Shown in pieces: positions 4,133-44,838 of a DNA stretch of 64,000 nt. Both the position numbers and the translations under genes were made by a program. Numbering within the stretch: position 1 is the first letter of the stretch; the number at the start of each line of letters is the position of its first letter. The notes beneath the pieces are model-generated. The model worked only from the letters and a program-made list of their open reading frames with translations, searched no databases and was not told the origin of the DNA. This DNA comes from Cyanobacteria bacterium FACHB-DQ100 (GTDB taxonomy: Bacteria; Cyanobacteriota; Cyanobacteriia; Leptolyngbyales; Leptolyngbyaceae), in assembly GCA_014695195.1 (NCBI GenBank), contig JACJNW010000035.1:1-64000 (forward strand), read 5' to 3'.

Positions 4133-6490
4133 GTGGCAAAGAGTAGCTCGAAGCGCAACGGGAAACCCACTCAACCTGATTATTCCCCAACAGGGCTAGA
4201 CTCTATGACAGACGGAACTGACGGAAAAAAACGCACCCCGAAAGCGCGATCAGAGCGCAAGCGGACACGGCGGGGTGCGCGCAAGCTGACGGAAAGTTCT
4301 CGCTTGGCAGGAGTTCGGGATTGGATCACTGGAGTCACAGCTCGGCTCAAACCTTTAGGAGAAAAAATCCCCGCACCGCTGAAAGAAGCGAAAACTTGGA
4401 GATGGATCGTTGGCGGCGTGGTGGTGGTCGGTGGAATTGGTGCACTTCGAGTCGCTGCGATCGAGATTGACAGCAGCCTGCCCAATCCTGCTGAAATTAA
4501 AACGTTTGCTCGTCCTGGAACGCTGACGATTCGGGCATCAGATGGTACGGTGCTGCATCAGCTAGGCCCTGCAACCCGACAGAAATTGGCGATCGATAAA
4601 ATTCCCCAACGCCTCGTGCAAGCGTTTGTCGCTTCAGAAGATCGGCGGTTTTACGATCACGGTGGACTTGATTTTCAGGGCATTGGACGAGCGGTTTTTC
4701 GGAACCTAACCTCTCGCGATGTCGTTGAAGGCGGCAGTACGATCACGCAGCAGCTTTCTCGAATTGTGTTTCTCGATCAAGACGATCGCAGCATTGGACG
4801 AAAAGTGCGGGAAGCCCTGATCGCGCAGAAACTTGAGCGCGACATCGACAAGCAGAAGATTCTAGAGAAATATCTCAATTTTGTTTATCTTGGCTCTAAC
4901 GCCTACGGAGTTGCAGATGCCGCTTGGATTTATTTCAGTAAGTCCGTCGAGCAGTTAACGCTGGGAGAAATGGCAACGATCGCCGGACTACCCCCCGCTC
5001 CGAGCTTGTATTCGCCACTGGTCAGCCTAGAAAAAGCACAAGAGCGGCGCAATGTAGTGCTCGATAAAATGGTCGTCGCGGGCTACATTACCGAAGCAGA
5101 ATCACAAGCAGCACAGGCTGAAAAACTGGTGGTAAAACCGAGTACGCCGAGAAATATTCAGAGTTCTTCACCGTATTTCACCTACTATGTGCAGCAGCAG
5201 CTTGAAAAATTGGTGCCGAAAGAGGCGCTATTTGCAGGCGGGGTCACGGTTGAAACGACGCTGAATGCAAAATGGCAAAAAGCAGCAGAAAAAGCGTTGA
5301 AAACCGCTATTCGTGAAGATGGCAGCGCAGAAGGCTTCAAACAAGGCGCGCTCGTGTCGATCGATCCGCGGAACGGTGAGATTCGCGCGATGGTGGGCGG
5401 CTACGATTTTTACAAAGATAGCCAGTTCAACCGAGCGACTCAAGCACAGCGACAGCCTGGATCAACCTTTAAGCCGTTTGTTTATGCGACCGCGATCGGC
5501 GCTGGGTTTTCTCCGAATCAGTCTTATCTTGATGAACGCTTCTCGATCGATGGCTACCAGCCGAAAAACTATGGCAACAAGTATTCTGGCTGGATGAGTA
5601 TGAAATCGGCGCTGACGAAATCGATTAATACGATCGCCGTGAAAGTGCTGATGGATGTGGGATATAAGCCCACGATTGATTTAGTTCGCAGCGTAGGTAT
5701 TGCCTCTAAGGTGGAACCAACGCTAGCGCTAGCGCTGGGTGCTTATGAAGTCAATCCGCTAGAGCTAACTAGCGCTTATGGCGTGTTTGCGGCGCAAGGA
5801 AATTTTGTTCAGCCTCACGCCATTCGGCGCGTGCTCGATCGCAACGGCAAAGTTTTGTTCGATTCTAACTTCAAGTCCAAGCGAGTTTTAGATGCAGAAA
5901 CGGCTGCAATCACCAACTGGATGATGCGCGAGGTCGTGACCGAGGGAACCGGACGCGCCGCGCAACTCGGTCGTCCCGTAGCTGGAAAAACTGGAACCTC
6001 TGAGGAAGCGCGAGACTTATGGTTTATTGGCTATATCCCGCAGCTTGTTACAGGCGTTTGGCTGGGCAACGATGATAGCTCGCCGACCGGGGGAACGAGC
6101 GGAACGGCAGCCTATACCTGGCAAGAGTTTATGAAAGAAGTCGTGCAGGGAATGCCTGTGCAGAAATTTGCGGAAATTCCAGCGAATCTCGAAGACCGCA
6201 AAGGCACGATTAAACCGCAACCGATTCGAGCAGCGCGAACACGATCGCTCGGTCAAGAGCCTGACCCGGCAGAAGAGCAACCCAGACAGCGCTATTACGA
6301 AGAACCTGCACCGGAACCGACCTATTCAGAACCCCGTCGCTCTGAGCCAGCGTATTCTGAGCCTGCGCCCAGTCAAGCGGAGCCAGCCCCAGAACCTGCT
6401 GCGGCTCCAGAACCCCCTGCTGCGGCTCCAGAACCTCCCGCTCCGGAGCCCCCCGCCGCGACTGATCCCGCTCCTCCCCCTGGGAATTAG
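4133..6490 (+). CDS. Class A penicillin-binding protein (PBP1A family)
   Basis: A 785-residue bifunctional peptidoglycan synthase starting at GTG 4133. A basic cytoplasmic tail of about 85 residues is followed by one membrane helix (about 88-110). The GT51 glycosyltransferase domain (about 125-300) shows the catalytic ASEDRRFYDHGG motif, EGGSTITQQLSR and the GEMATIAGLPPAPS end. The transpeptidase domain (about 355-660) shows the nucleophile box GSTFKPF (near residue 444), KSINT, and KTGTS (near residue 618). The last 90 residues or so are a low-complexity tail of Pro, Ala and Glu with repeated EP and SEP units, presumably spanning the periplasm. Cyanobacteria carry several such genes, so I give no symbol. 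It is preceded by a 249-base spacer after chlG with no recognised gene. Confidence 0.93.
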   Translation: MAKSSSKRNGKPTQPDYSPTGLDSMTDGTDGKKRTPKARSERKRTRRGARKLTESSRLAGVRDWITGVTARLKPLGEKIPAPLKEAKTWRWIVGGVVVVGGIGALRVAAIEIDSSLPNPAEIKTFARPGTLTIRASDGTVLHQLGPATRQKLAIDKIPQRLVQAFVASEDRRFYDHGGLDFQGIGRAVFRNLTSRDVVEGGSTITQQLSRIVFLDQDDRSIGRKVREALIAQKLERDIDKQKILEKYLNFVYLGSNAYGVADAAWIYFSKSVEQLTLGEMATIAGLPPAPSLYSPLVSLEKAQERRNVVLDKMVVAGYITEAESQAAQAEKLVVKPSTPRNIQSSSPYFTYYVQQQLEKLVPKEALFAGGVTVETTLNAKWQKAAEKALKTAIREDGSAEGFKQGALVSIDPRNGEIRAMVGGYDFYKDSQFNRATQAQRQPGSTFKPFVYATAIGAGFSPNQSYLDERFSIDGYQPKNYGNKYSGWMSMKSALTKSINTIAVKVLMDVGYKPTIDLVRSVGIASKVEPTLALALGAYEVNPLELTSAYGVFAAQGNFVQPHAIRRVLDRNGKVLFDSNFKSKRVLDAETAAITNWMMREVVTEGTGRAAQLGRPVAGKTGTSEEARDLWFIGYIPQLVTGVWLGNDDSSPTGGTSGTAAYTWQEFMKEVVQGMPVQKFAEIPANLEDRKGTIKPQPIRAARTRSLGQEPDPAEEQPRQRYYEEPAPEPTYSEPRRSEPAYSEPAPSQAEPAPEPAAAPEPPAAAPEPPAPEPPAATDPAPPPGN

Positions 6491-25328: not shown

Positions 25329-25367
25329 CAACATTTCTGTAAAAAGCCTGAATGTTGGAGTTAAAAG

Positions 25368-25572
25368 CGAGAACAATCGACCTCCAAGCAGGAAACTTGC
25401 CCCTCAAAGCGCCAACAATTTATCTCCAAGATGAAACGATCGTGCTAGAAACCAACAACGATCGATCTCTAAGCAGGAAACTTGCCCCTCAAAGCACCAA
25501 CGATCGACCCCTAAGCGGAAAACCATCGTGCCTGAGCCACGAACGATCGACCTCTAGGCTGGAACGATCGTG
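25368..25572. repeat. Patch of degenerate direct repeats between the toxin module and surE
   Basis: A block of 30 bases, aagcaggaaacttgcccctc plus aaagcgccaa, at 25386-25415 recurs with one mismatch at 25471-25500, 85 bases later. Around them the words cgatcgacctctaagc, gaaac and gatcgtgct recur in degraded form every 40 bases or so up to the surE stop. An 85-codon open frame at 25352-25609 runs through the patch, but its product is only the translated repeat. I judge it noncoding. 25208-25367 has nothing else I recognise apart from the direct repeat. Confidence 0.6.
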
Positions 25573-25573
25573 C

Positions 25574-26362
25574 TTAGAGACTGAGATCTCGATCTTTCAT
25601 CAGCTTTAAGCCCAGTGGAGAGGTGAGATTGTAATGCAGTGGCGTGACGGTGATATATCCATCGCGATTTGCCTCCACATCTGTTGGAATCCCTTCATTG
25701 GGAATGTCTGGATCTTCGACATCTTCGAGCAGTTCACCCGAAAGCCAGTAGTAAATCTTGCCTCGCGGATCAACCCGCTTCTCAAACACATCCGTATAGC
25801 GCCGCACGCCTTGACGAGTCAGAATCGCACCCCGAATTTGATCACGCTCGATCGCCGGAACATTCACATTCAGCAGCATCAATTCAGACAACGGATCTTT
25901 CTCCAACTGTTGCACCAGCGTACAGGCATAATCCGCCGCAGGCTGAAACTCTTGCGACTGAAAACTGGTGAGGCTAAACGCAATACTCGGAATCCCTTCG
26001 ATCACGCCTTCCATTGCCGCCGAAACCGTTCCCGAATACAGCACATCCGTTCCCAAATTCGACCCGTGATTAATTCCGGAAAGCACAAAATCCGGTTTCT
26101 CCTCCAGCAATGCCCAAATCGCTAACTTCACACAATCCGAGGGTGTCCCCGAACACGCCCACGCTCTTACCGCCGGATGAAACACCTGATCCATTTGCAC
26201 CACGCGGATCGGATCATGCAGCGTTAACCCATGTCCGGTTGCCGATCGTTCGCGATCGGGGCACACCACCGTCACCGTATGTCCCGCCTCTGCCAGAGTA
26301 TTCGCCAGCGTCCGAATGCCGAGCGCGTAAACACCATCATCGTTGCTGATCAGGAGTCTCAT
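25574..26362 (-). CDS. surE: 5'/3'-nucleotidase SurE
   Basis: A 262-residue survival protein E. It dephosphorylates nucleoside monophosphates and needs a divalent metal. The metal site is visible: [12 protein letters not shown] at residues 3-14 with the adjacent Asp pair, GTPSDCV near 85, and [26 protein letters not shown] near 100-125. The start was set at 26362 ([10 protein letters not shown]) because the family begins there; an in-frame ATG at 26383 adds seven unrelated residues. It is divergent from pheS, with 68 bases between start codons. Confidence 0.95.
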
Positions 26363-42377: not shown

Positions 42378-42535
42378 ATACCGAATCAATTTATTAATGC
42401 GACAGATCCTTCGCCCCCTAAATCCCCCATACTGGGGGACTTTGAGAATCCGAAACAGATTTAGGCTTGAAGTCCCCCACTCGTGGGGGATTTAGGGGGC
42501 GAAGGATCTGTCGCACTCAAAAATCAATTTGGTAT
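42378..42535. repeat. Foldback repeat, copy C (158 bp, with 30-bp perfect inverted arms)
   Basis: Bounded by ataccgaatc (42378-42387) and aatttggtat (42526-42535). A perfect 30-bp inverted repeat occupies 42399-42428 and 42485-42514 (starting gcgacagatccttcgccccc, and its complement ending ggatctgtcgc). The 56-base interval contains two further half-palindromes of the ccccc/ggggg type. The transcript or single strand would form a long hairpin. It is the largest member of the family and may be a nested pair of copies. The neighbouring bases 42156-42377 hold no gene. Confidence 0.85.
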
Positions 42536-42641: not shown

Positions 42642-42743
42642 ATACCGAATTAGACATAAAATGCGACAGATCATACTCAAAGTCCCCCAGAATGGGGGAT
42701 TTAGGGGGCGAGAATCTGTCGCATCCACAAATCAATCTGGTAT
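42642..42743. repeat. Foldback repeat, copy D (full 102-bp element)
   Basis: ataccgaatt at 42642-42651 and aatctggtat at 42734-42743 bound an element of 102 bp, the same length and layout as copy B at 29105. It has gcgacagat near the left end, atctgtcgc near the right end, and the gtcccccagaatggggga core. It lies 106 bases after copy C. 42744-42929 then leads to the next gene and shows only a 7-bp stem aatcagc/gctgatt near 42844-42874. Confidence 0.85.
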
Positions 42744-42929: not shown

Positions 42930-43418
42930 ATGGCATCCCAGAATCTTCCCGCCCAGCTTTCAGACACCGACCTCGAAGAAATCAAAGCCGCCCTTGCGAC
43001 GATCGAAGCCCAGATGCCGTTTCTAGTGCATCTCAGCACCGAAGAACGCCGCAAGCTGTTCAAGATGGGCAACAAAAGCCTCTCGTTTGTCAACAACAGC
43101 CTGATCGCCGCTCAATCCAATCCCGATATTCTCCCTGCCAGCTTCGATCTCGACAAGTTCCGCAGCAACTATGAACTCGCGACCACCCTGACCGAAGTGC
43201 TTCTGAGACTGCAACAACTCACCGAAAAAGTAGACGATACCTTAATCTCGGTGAGCAGCGAAGCGATGACCGATAGCCTCACTGTCTACGACTACATCAA
43301 AACCGCCTCTAAAAAGACTCCGGGACTCAAAGCCGTTGCCGATCAGTTAGGCGAACGCTTCAAAGCCACTCGCTCCAGAGCATCGAAAGAAGCCCCGACT
43401 CCTGCATCCGTTTCTTAA
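42930..43418 (+). CDS. Conserved small helical protein, unknown
   Basis: A 162-residue soluble helical protein. ATG 42930 begins MASQNLPAQLSDTDLEEIKAAL; the open frame upstream is unrelated in character. Features: LVHLSTEERRKLFKMGNKSLSFVNNSL near residue 35, DLDKFRSNYELATTL near 75, and VYDYIKTASKKTPGLKAVADQLGERFK near the end. I recall similar uncharacterised proteins in many Bacteroidetes and cyanobacteria with the same order of motifs (mgdKtvsFv, then a vYxxvKxAAk end), but no function is known. It is followed at once by the 21-bp array. Confidence 0.75.
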   Translation: MASQNLPAQLSDTDLEEIKAALATIEAQMPFLVHLSTEERRKLFKMGNKSLSFVNNSLIAAQSNPDILPASFDLDKFRSNYELATTLTEVLLRLQQLTEKVDDTLISVSSEAMTDSLTVYDYIKTASKKTPGLKAVADQLGERFKATRSRASKEAPTPASVS

Positions 43419-43422
43419 TCAA

Positions 43423-43674
43423 GTTCCAATACTCGCTGATGAATCATTTAATCTCGTTGGCGAGTGTTGATCACTCATTCACGAGTCTTTATGACTCACG
43501 CACGAGTGTTTGATCCTCGCGGGCGAGTGTTGATCACTCATTCACGAGTCTGCGATCGTCGTTGGCGAGTATTGATCACTCATTCACGAGTCTTTGATCG
43601 TCGCCCACGAGTGTTGATCACTCACGCACGAGTCTCGAATCCTCGTCGATGAGTCTTGATCGCTCGTGGATGAG
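43423..43674. repeat. Tandem array of twelve 21-bp units with inverted arms
   Basis: From 43423 to 43674 the sequence is exactly periodic at 21 bp for 12 units, starting 4 bases after the preceding stop codon. The first two and last two units are the most diverged. Most units contain gatc followed by an arm pair of the type ctc-n6-gag (for example actcattcacgagt). The units at 43465-43485 and 43528-43548 are identical and 43570-43590 differs by one base. Because 21 is divisible by 3, the plus strand is open across it (43464-43652) and would encode 7-residue repeats such as VLITHSR. I judge it noncoding. Confidence 0.9.
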
Positions 43675-43723
43675 TGCCAGTTTCTAGAAGGAGTTGTCGA
43701 TCGCTTCGTTTCAGTCGGCTTCA

Positions 43724-43828
43724 GCCCCCTAAATCCCCCAAATTTGGGGGACTTTGAATGTCAAAAATTTCCTGGAATCCCAAAATTACTTATTGTCAAA
43801 GTCCCCCAGAATGGGGGATTTAGGGGGC
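43724..43828. repeat. Foldback repeat, copy E (inverted pair of cores)
   Basis: gccccctaaatccccca at 43724-43740 and its exact inverse complement tgggggatttagggggc at 43812-43828 enclose 71 bases. The left arm continues aatttgggggacttt and the right arm begins caaagtcccccagaa, so two family cores face each other. The outer ataccgaatt/aatttggtat ends are missing. It lies 27 bases beyond the pdhB stop and could act as its transcription terminator. Confidence 0.8.
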
Positions 43829-43854
43829 AGTTTGCCAGTGACTTCAACTCCCTT

Positions 43855-44838
43855 CTAAACCTTCAACGGAACCATGTTGCGAACCGCTTCCACAATCTGC
43901 GGCGGTTGCACGATCGTTAAAGCCTCAAGCGTTCCATTGTAAGGAGTCGGAATATCTTGCGAAGACATCCGCAACACGGGCGCATCGAGTTCATCGAAGA
44001 AGCGATCGTTAATCGAAGCGGTCAGTTCCGCTCCAATTCCCCCAGTTCGCATACATTCTTCCACAATAATCACGCGATGCGTTTTGCAGATTGATTCACC
44101 GATCGTCTCAAAATCCAGTGGCTTGAGCGAAAGCAAATCAATTACTTCGCAGTCATACCCTTCTTTATCTAACGTCTTCATCGCCTGCATCACATGATGC
44201 CGCATTCTCGAATACGTCAGAATCGTGACATCTTTGCCTTTTCGCACGACTTCAGCTTTATCAAGCGGCAGGTAATATTCTTCGCTCGGCAGGTCTTCTT
44301 TCAGGTTGTAAAGCAGAACGTGCTCAAAAAACAGCACGGGATTATCGTCTCGAATCGCCGACTTCAGCAATCCTTTGGCGTTGTAGGGAGTCGAACACGT
44401 AACGATCTTCAATCCGGGAACCGCTTGGAAATAAGCTTCCAGCCGTTGCGAGTGTTCTGCACCTAAGCGGCTACCGACTCCACCAGGGCCGCGAATCACG
44501 ATCGGGATCTTGAAGTTCCCACCCGACGTATAGCGCAACATCCCCGCATTATTCGAGATCTGGTTGAACGCCAGCAGCAAAAAGCCCATGTTCATACCTT
44601 CGATAATCGGGCGCAATCCGGTCATTGCCGCGCCGATCGCCATCCCGGTAAAGCTGTTTTCAGCGATCGGCGTATCGAGCAGCCGCAGATCCCCATACTT
44701 CTTATATAAATCCTTCGTGACTTTGTAGGAGCCGCCGTAATGACCGATATCTTCTCCCATCACCAAAACCGTCGGGTCTTTTGCCATTTCTTCGTCGATC
44801 GCTTCCCGAAGGGCATTAAAGAAGAGTGTCTCTGCCAT
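43855..44838 (-). CDS. pdhB: Pyruvate dehydrogenase E1 component beta subunit
   Basis: A 327-residue subunit that with PdhA decarboxylates pyruvate and passes acetyl to E2. Motifs: [19 protein letters not shown] (residues 22-41, ThDP-contacting Glu), [25 protein letters not shown] (near 57-80), [20 protein letters not shown] (near 117-135), and [15 protein letters not shown] near the C-terminus. The length is normal. pdhA is not adjacent, as usual in cyanobacteria. It is divergent from hom across about 150 bases. Confidence 0.95.

Follow-up and report, generated by a model that had tools for sequence, protein, structure and literature searches.

The window analysed here, the whole 64,000-nucleotide stretch of DNA from Cyanobacteria bacterium FACHB-DQ100, carries a small gene on the forward strand at 42930..43418 that encodes a protein of 162 residues (the open reading frame is listed from 42861, and the ATG at 42930 was used as the start). 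Directly 3′ of its stop codon begins a tandem array of twelve 21-bp dyad units of the type GAGT-N7-ACTC-N6 (43423..43674, no strand assigned). Its best-conserved core, in which GAGT and ACTC arms alternate, spans 43462..43665 (again without a strand) according to pattern matches and a TRF row at 43461-43665, and degenerate edge units extend the array to 43420 and 43692. On the far side lies a transketolase-type gene on the opposite strand (43855..44838, minus strand; an open reading frame with Pfam Transket_pyr and Transketolase_C), convergent with the array, which we read as pyruvate dehydrogenase E1 beta. This gene is a mere neighbour and lies outside the gene-array element. A scan for promoters and terminators around the array showed nothing clear, and Rfam gave only below-cut-off matches in the window, none of them inside the array. 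A palindromic repeat whose arms resemble ccccctaaatccccc occurs around the gene and the array at 42400-42513, 42681-42711 and 43721-43831; two of its copies match microRNA families in Rfam below the cut-off.

The first-pass annotation of the array had described twelve 21-bp units without drift, and unit comparison, TRF and the lag-21 segment score agree on this: the period is exactly 21 bases throughout, and the segment score (v) reaches 29.7, whereas none of 200 shuffles exceeded 5.8. A GATC and inverted ctc-N6-gag arms had been ascribed to most units and are present in 8/12 and 9/12, respectively, and the two units reported as identical, 43465-43485 and 43528-43548, form the only such pair. 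Expansion had been proposed to proceed by 42- and 63-bp steps. Because mean unit identity is 69% between alternate units versus 56% between neighbours and 56% between units three apart, the data bear out the 42-bp step but not the 63-bp step. In the arm-based phase each unit holds two dyads, GAGT-N7-ACTC and ACTC-N6-GAGT, which supports the earlier idea of a repeated dyad phased to two helical turns. Elsewhere in the window, another array, weaker and periodic at 21/42/85 bp, lies at 25339-25574, with no relative of the small gene nearby and, upstream of it, a gene for what we have the impression is a small candidate PIN-like protein; a short lag-21 tandem stretch of about 2.5 copies in TRF lies at 6342-6450.

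The 162-residue product belongs to no Pfam or NCBIfam family above the cut-off. Pfam searches with 77 homologs returned weak families only, with no transposase among the matches listed (25 of 39), and PADLOC gave no match for the window protein and weak matches for a few of the 77 members (best E 5.3e-4). A PHROG search with 19 members only found no convincing relative, and the best hit of a PDB sequence search had an E of 0.14. AlphaFold2, given the 77 homologs, produced an all-helical model with a mean pLDDT of 88 and low-confidence ends. Foldseek found nothing for this model in the PDB at E<=0.001, VIA-align on Foldseek's list did not exceed Z 6.5 (60 residues), a level common for helical models, and the predicted fold gave no convincing match to any DNA-binding family. 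The protein is mostly acidic, with a median pI of 5.9 over the 77 homologs, and its clearly basic part is the C-terminal tail, one of the low-confidence regions of the model. F53, P69 and Y120 are invariant across the 77 homolog rows.

Homologs of the small gene occur in Cyanobacteria, Bacteroidota, Pseudomonadota and Acidobacteriota, and they are usually followed by a tandem array with a period of 21 or 42 bp. In the window's own genome family, f1 (which we take to be Leptolyngbyaceae; family names were not used in any count), homologs were found in 24/42 genomes, often several per genome. A lag scan (lags 12-40, 600 bp past the stop codon, threshold 58/105) began with 77 loci, one of them without a gene match; 50 of the 76 gene-bearing loci scored >=58/105 downstream, all 50 at lag 21, and upstream 11 did so, 6 of these at lag 21. 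By segment score, v>=15 was reached downstream in 70/99 homologs with enough DNA and upstream in 5/95, with a maximum of 5.4 in a control of one shuffle per locus for the 100 homologs. An array at v>=7 accompanies 87 of these 100 distinct homologs, seven of whose loci had originally been picked via array matches, and the best lag is 21 in 86 and 23 in one; the other 13 fall below v 7 and are without a detected array. As a control, we scored the 53 window open reading frames of at least 150 residues, and seven had v>=7: two face the window array from either side, two at lag 21 lead to the weak array at about 25.3-25.6 kb, and the remaining three show other lags. In a second cyanobacterial family, f28 (presumably Nostocaceae), 30 loci were collected, one without a gene match, and the best lag is 21 or 42 in 25 of the 29 others, 23 in one and none in three, two of which are gene fragments. 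The 113 distinct gene-linked arrays start a median of 68 nt past the stop codon and run for a median of 10.9 units (41 nt and 11.3 units in an earlier set of 53 arrays). At L259 and L273 the array lies some 500-600 nt past the stop codon, and a few loci carry the array upstream of the gene.

The same arrangement recurs in other phyla. The protein, and not the array, led to the loci of the f1 survey and to nearly all of those in Bacteroidota. The gene is present in 18/198 Bacteroidota genomes, counting a Prevotellaceae MAG; one of the 18 (G440) was selected through its array. At the 28 Bacteroidota loci, some of them fragments and with one gene split in two, the best lag within <=800 bp downstream is 21 in 10, 42 in 8, 43 in one (L266) and none in nine, one of which has a lag-21 array upstream; the threshold was v 8 and single shuffles reached up to 9.8, the level of one lag-21 locus (L274, 9.8). 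A search of 17 genomes, all chosen for array matches, gave family-gene matches (partial ones included) in an Azoarcus MAG (7), the Prevotellaceae MAG (3) and an Acidobacteriota MAG (11), and none in three further genomes behind odd array matches. Binning errors are possible in these three MAGs; their array units are non-cyanobacterial in letters, and those of Azoarcus also in composition. The Azoarcus MAG has a GC-rich array with GAGT/ACTC arms directly past the stop codon, and it was found by the GAGT/ACTC pattern itself, although its position beside the gene was not preselected. Within the phylum to which the Azoarcus MAG belongs, the gene occurs in 2/398 genomes, MAG included, and in that of the Acidobacteriota MAG it occurs in the MAG and in one marginal genome of 297. 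These two phylum searches yielded 22 loci, three with too little downstream DNA; 11 of the other 19 have a lag of 21 or 42 downstream, three have it upstream, one has lag 20 and one lag 22, and the last three comprise one with an upstream lag of 23 and two with none. Best lags of 20 (L347, Acidobacteriota MAG), 22 and 43 (L266) beside the family gene were each seen once, and 23 was seen once each in the 100-homolog, f28 and two-phylum sets. With these counts in hand we regard the linkage of gene and array as practically certain.

What is conserved in these arrays is geometry, as opposed to letters. We compared the dyad symmetry of the circular unit with column shuffles in the 113 arrays and obtained a mean z of 2.35, with p<=.05 in 75 arrays and a positive mean in all 24 protein clusters. 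The mirror-symmetry control on the same arrays gave a z of 0.29, with p<=.05 in 11. Unit similarity declines with protein identity (Mantel r 0.58, 0/500 permutations), lying well above the null mainly at >=60% protein identity and at the null below about 40%. Where the protein is >=64% identical to that of the window, the GAGT/ACTC core has a median of 7.4 of 8 (n=18; four below 5.5), compared with 3.8 in the remaining arrays (n=94), among which Azoarcus (pattern-selected), L297 at 62% and L167 at 60% identity are exceptions with a high core. No motif common to all clusters emerged from 5-mer enrichment. Co-divergence of the gene-linked arrays with the protein may be simple co-inheritance, and the constancy of the period may be partly inherited as well, as a tandem array would have difficulty switching to another period. 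Inheritance through the tandem structure would account for part of this constancy and does not account for persistence beside the gene across phyla.

These observations bear on whether the arrays are functionless minisatellites that are carried along beside the gene. The first-pass annotation had offered a recombination-prone minisatellite as one reading and a comparison of copy number as a check. Several solitary arrays, which are described below, hold their site between species, and related arrays at matching sites differ in unit number (e.g. 7, 16 and 13 units). This variation, together with the likeness of units within an array, suits a minisatellite, so that part of the earlier reading stands. 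A plain minisatellite does not explain the gene linkage: such a repeat should have no lasting link to a gene, and this is contradicted by a linkage that recurs at about 30% protein identity across phyla, where the unit letters are unrelated and the period and dyad are the same. Lag-21 repeats are also scarce, with only three segments at v>=8 in the 64-kb window. We consider passive carriage very unlikely. Since arrays persist by this gene in several phyla with their letters replaced, selection or protein-driven regeneration would be needed.

Related arrays also occur away from the gene. The first-pass annotation missed the partnership with the upstream gene, the same-period arrays in four phyla and the scattered related arrays, although the search of the genome and its relatives that it suggested did reveal arrays scattered in this genome and in other cyanobacteria. 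For genome scans we used the pattern GAGT-N7-ACTC-N6-GAGT-N7-ACTC with <=2 mismatches. In the window's genome (G000, family f1) it matches 38 times per strand, versus once for the reversed control, and the matches make up six arrays and two isolated matches; five of the six arrays (on C11, C22, C31 and two on C23) have no small-gene relative within 6-8 kb. Used as a DNA query, the window array finds matches in 7/58 genomes, its own included. Cyanobacteria bacterium FACHB-63 has this locus as well. A scan of named genomes returned at least 107 stretches, mostly in cyanobacteria with a few in other phyla, and the genera among the matches listed include Nostoc, Scytonema, Brasilonema, Westiellopsis, Fischerella and Tolypothrix. 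An array with GAGT/ACTC arms in an uncultured Aquimarina (L100 3080-3289) has no family gene in its 8-kb stretch.

Solitary arrays accompany the gene at the level of the genome. Among 42 genomes of f28, GAGT arrays that we judged real are present in 11/14 with the gene and 0/28 without it (p 8.5e-8, kinship ignored), and counting any pattern match gives 11/14 vs 3/28 (p 2.3e-5, kinship ignored); one of the 28 genomes counted as gene-free has a gene fragment. G077 and G329, with one match each, and G349, where a simple repeat matched, were put down to chance by eye, and a single match in G381 was taken as real; five matches in G307, a gene-free genome of another family, belong to a repeat without the ACTC arm and were not counted. 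Among the first places listed for each f28 genome, most arrays lie far from the gene. For the 35 f1 genomes covered by both searches, solitary arrays are found in 4/9 with a close gene vs 0/26 others (p 0.0024, kinship ignored), where a close gene means >=190 bits, a cut chosen post hoc.

The position of arrays relative to genes was assessed with a crude home-made gene caller. Of 125 arrays (119 distinct), 43 lie in tandem, 31 in convergent and 9 in divergent contexts, 12 overlap a called ORF and 30 sit at locus edges, as compared with 146 tandem, 72 convergent and 59 divergent among the >=200-bp gaps of these loci, those that hold arrays included (p 0.037 for divergent and p 0.053 for convergent contexts). 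In 29/40 distinct tandem cases the array is closer to the stop of the upstream gene (p 0.006). These counts omit L059, L072, L075, L079, L108 and L122, which were first judged chance, and keep other non-cyanobacterial loci (L100, L143); L059, whose array turned out to adjoin the gene, entered later counts. The position effects are modest.

One solitary array, in a genome of the same genus as the window's (G007, contig C165; L041 3957-4208), lies in frame within a histidine-kinase gene, where it encodes SQILADE-like heptads. The histidine-kinase homologs of G002, G000 and G006 have only a short loop at this position, and those of G001 and G003 (L318, L319) have different stretches there that are 7-residue-periodic by eye.

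An array where relatives show a short loop could have arrived by copying, and a selfish or mobile version would hold that the protein drives the copying and homogenisation of arrays, with solitary arrays as non-autonomous offspring in the manner of REP/RAYT systems. The concentration of solitary arrays in gene-carrying genomes fits this, and so does the presence of several gene matches in one genome, as many as 11 if fragments count. Against it, the model is all-helical, the Pfam families listed include no transposase, several solitary arrays stay at fixed sites between species, and the array that belongs to another paralog (C34) occurs just once in that genome. Nor does the family look mobile in our searches: no viral relative was confirmed, phages gave none, and plasmids gave one homolog, from Thiodictyon, which has no 21-bp array above background. 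A Nostoc array searched against plasmid and phage DNA likewise found no array and one plasmid match to its flank, although BLAST may mask part of such a query. We regard protein-driven copying of this kind as unlikely.

We then asked at which level the array acts. The window array has stop codons in all six frames, and 53 arrays share no common frame (some frame is open in 25, and each of the six is open in 5 to 13). On these grounds a translated 7-residue repeat was rejected, in line with the earlier view that the 7-residue frame is a by-product. At the RNA level, the array might be the 3′ part of the transcript and offer the protein a string of hairpins to bind, somewhat in the manner of type III toxin-antitoxin systems. 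The arrays do lie mostly 3′ of the gene, and that of the window folds strongly as RNA, yet it does so on both strands (z -6.6 for plus, -5.5 for minus). Both strands fold alike over the 113 arrays too, with no strand preference (59 raw; adjusted z 0.20 ± 0.24, negative in 11/24 protein clusters), and a set of 70 arrays divides 38 vs 32. G-U mismatches exceed A-C mismatches slightly on the gene strand (0.548 vs 0.533 at other centres; higher in 68/103 arrays; 72 arrays vs 34 in an uncontrolled count), which hints at an RNA role. In 40 tandem-gap arrays, solitary and gene-linked, the orientation of the spacer to transcription is 22 vs 18, and we see no obvious RNA reason for a fixed 21-nt period. 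An RNA-borne function seems improbable to us. Together, the lack of a shared frame, the absence of a strand preference in folding and the near-even spacer orientation favour a role at the DNA level.

We hypothesize that the small gene and its array form one two-part chromosomal element, in which the array is a putative cis-acting platform of duplex DNA for the protein. This reading is tentative, and we give it somewhat less than an even chance. A unit of 21 bp spans two turns of B-DNA, and because it is dyad-symmetric, a two-fold axis would recur each 10.5 bp, once per turn and on one face of the helix. The small helical protein, or a complex containing it, may assemble on this lattice, a phased protein-binding array having been the other reading offered by the first-pass annotation, and solitary arrays with the same arms would be further sites for the protein, somewhat commoner at the 3′ ends of genes. 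Local expansion and contraction would keep the units alike, and with units homogenised in this way the letters could drift with the protein as period and symmetry are kept. Possible roles are chromosome organisation or the insulation of transcript ends. The main weakness of the mechanism is the protein itself, which, being acidic but for its basic tail, does not resemble a classic DNA-binding protein. More broadly, and more doubtfully, we speculate that this is an undescribed, widespread class of element that pairs a helical protein with a lattice defined by geometry, with an axis per turn over about eleven units, letters rewritten in each lineage, and solitary copies serving as addresses in trans.

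Several known systems resemble this arrangement in part. In plasmid iterons and partition-site arrays, phased sites spanning about two turns adjoin the gene for the protein that binds them. The 21/42-bp direct repeats described here are likewise phased to whole helical turns beside a gene, with protein binding putative, but they lie on chromosomal contigs with several gene copies per genome, and none of the five window proteins scanned has a ParA- or Rep-type domain. In type III toxin-antitoxin systems of the ToxIN type, repeats of about 36 nt lie upstream of a toxin gene whose product is a beta-barrel. Both cases have a small protein gene adjoining tandem repeats of variable sequence; here, by contrast, the repeats are 21 bp and mostly downstream, the protein is all-helical, folding shows no strand preference beside the slight G-U excess on the gene strand, and the window protein has no PADLOC defence or toxin match. 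Filamentous cyanobacteria also carry STRR heptamers and small dispersed repeats in intergenic DNA, the latter reportedly the subject of a study by Elhai et al. 2008. LTRR and TAACTGA heptamer arrays are likewise intergenic in filamentous cyanobacteria, and TAACTGA is also found in Bacteroidetes (PMC2408588, PMC4679880), a distribution that recalls the present one; all of these cyanobacterial repeats differ in unit length and letters, and the accessible portions of the sources name no dedicated neighbour gene. REPs are palindromic repeats beside a RAYT transposase gene (together called REPtrons), with further solitary repeats in the genome (PMC3733652). Here too a dedicated gene adjoins palindromic repeats, with solitary copies in gene-carrying genomes. 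The differences are that our repeats form strict 21-bp tandem arrays whose units differ completely between distant homologs, that they consist of GAGT-N7-ACTC-N6 or other letters in place of GTAG-tagged hairpins that are single or paired, and that the protein is small and helical, with no Y1/HUH transposase among the weak Pfam families listed.

Literature searches by text and by unit letters, with subscription journals and preprints outside their scope, found no description of the gene-array pairing. Membership in the REP/RAYT and type III toxin-antitoxin systems failed where tested. If the hypothesis is correct, a gene family that has no named function acquires a DNA array of its own, and a class of intergenic minisatellites that would otherwise mean nothing is given a protein partner. 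Arrays whose letters vary freely at a fixed 21-bp period would then be a natural experiment in the co-evolution of a protein and its DNA platform, and a test case for helical-phase geometry as an address in chromosome organisation or at transcript ends.

A last observation concerns how single units change. When the window unit at 43528 is set against its counterpart in the G007 array, the 7-bp spacer is inverted between the arms in all but one letter, which is what inversion through a hairpin would produce.
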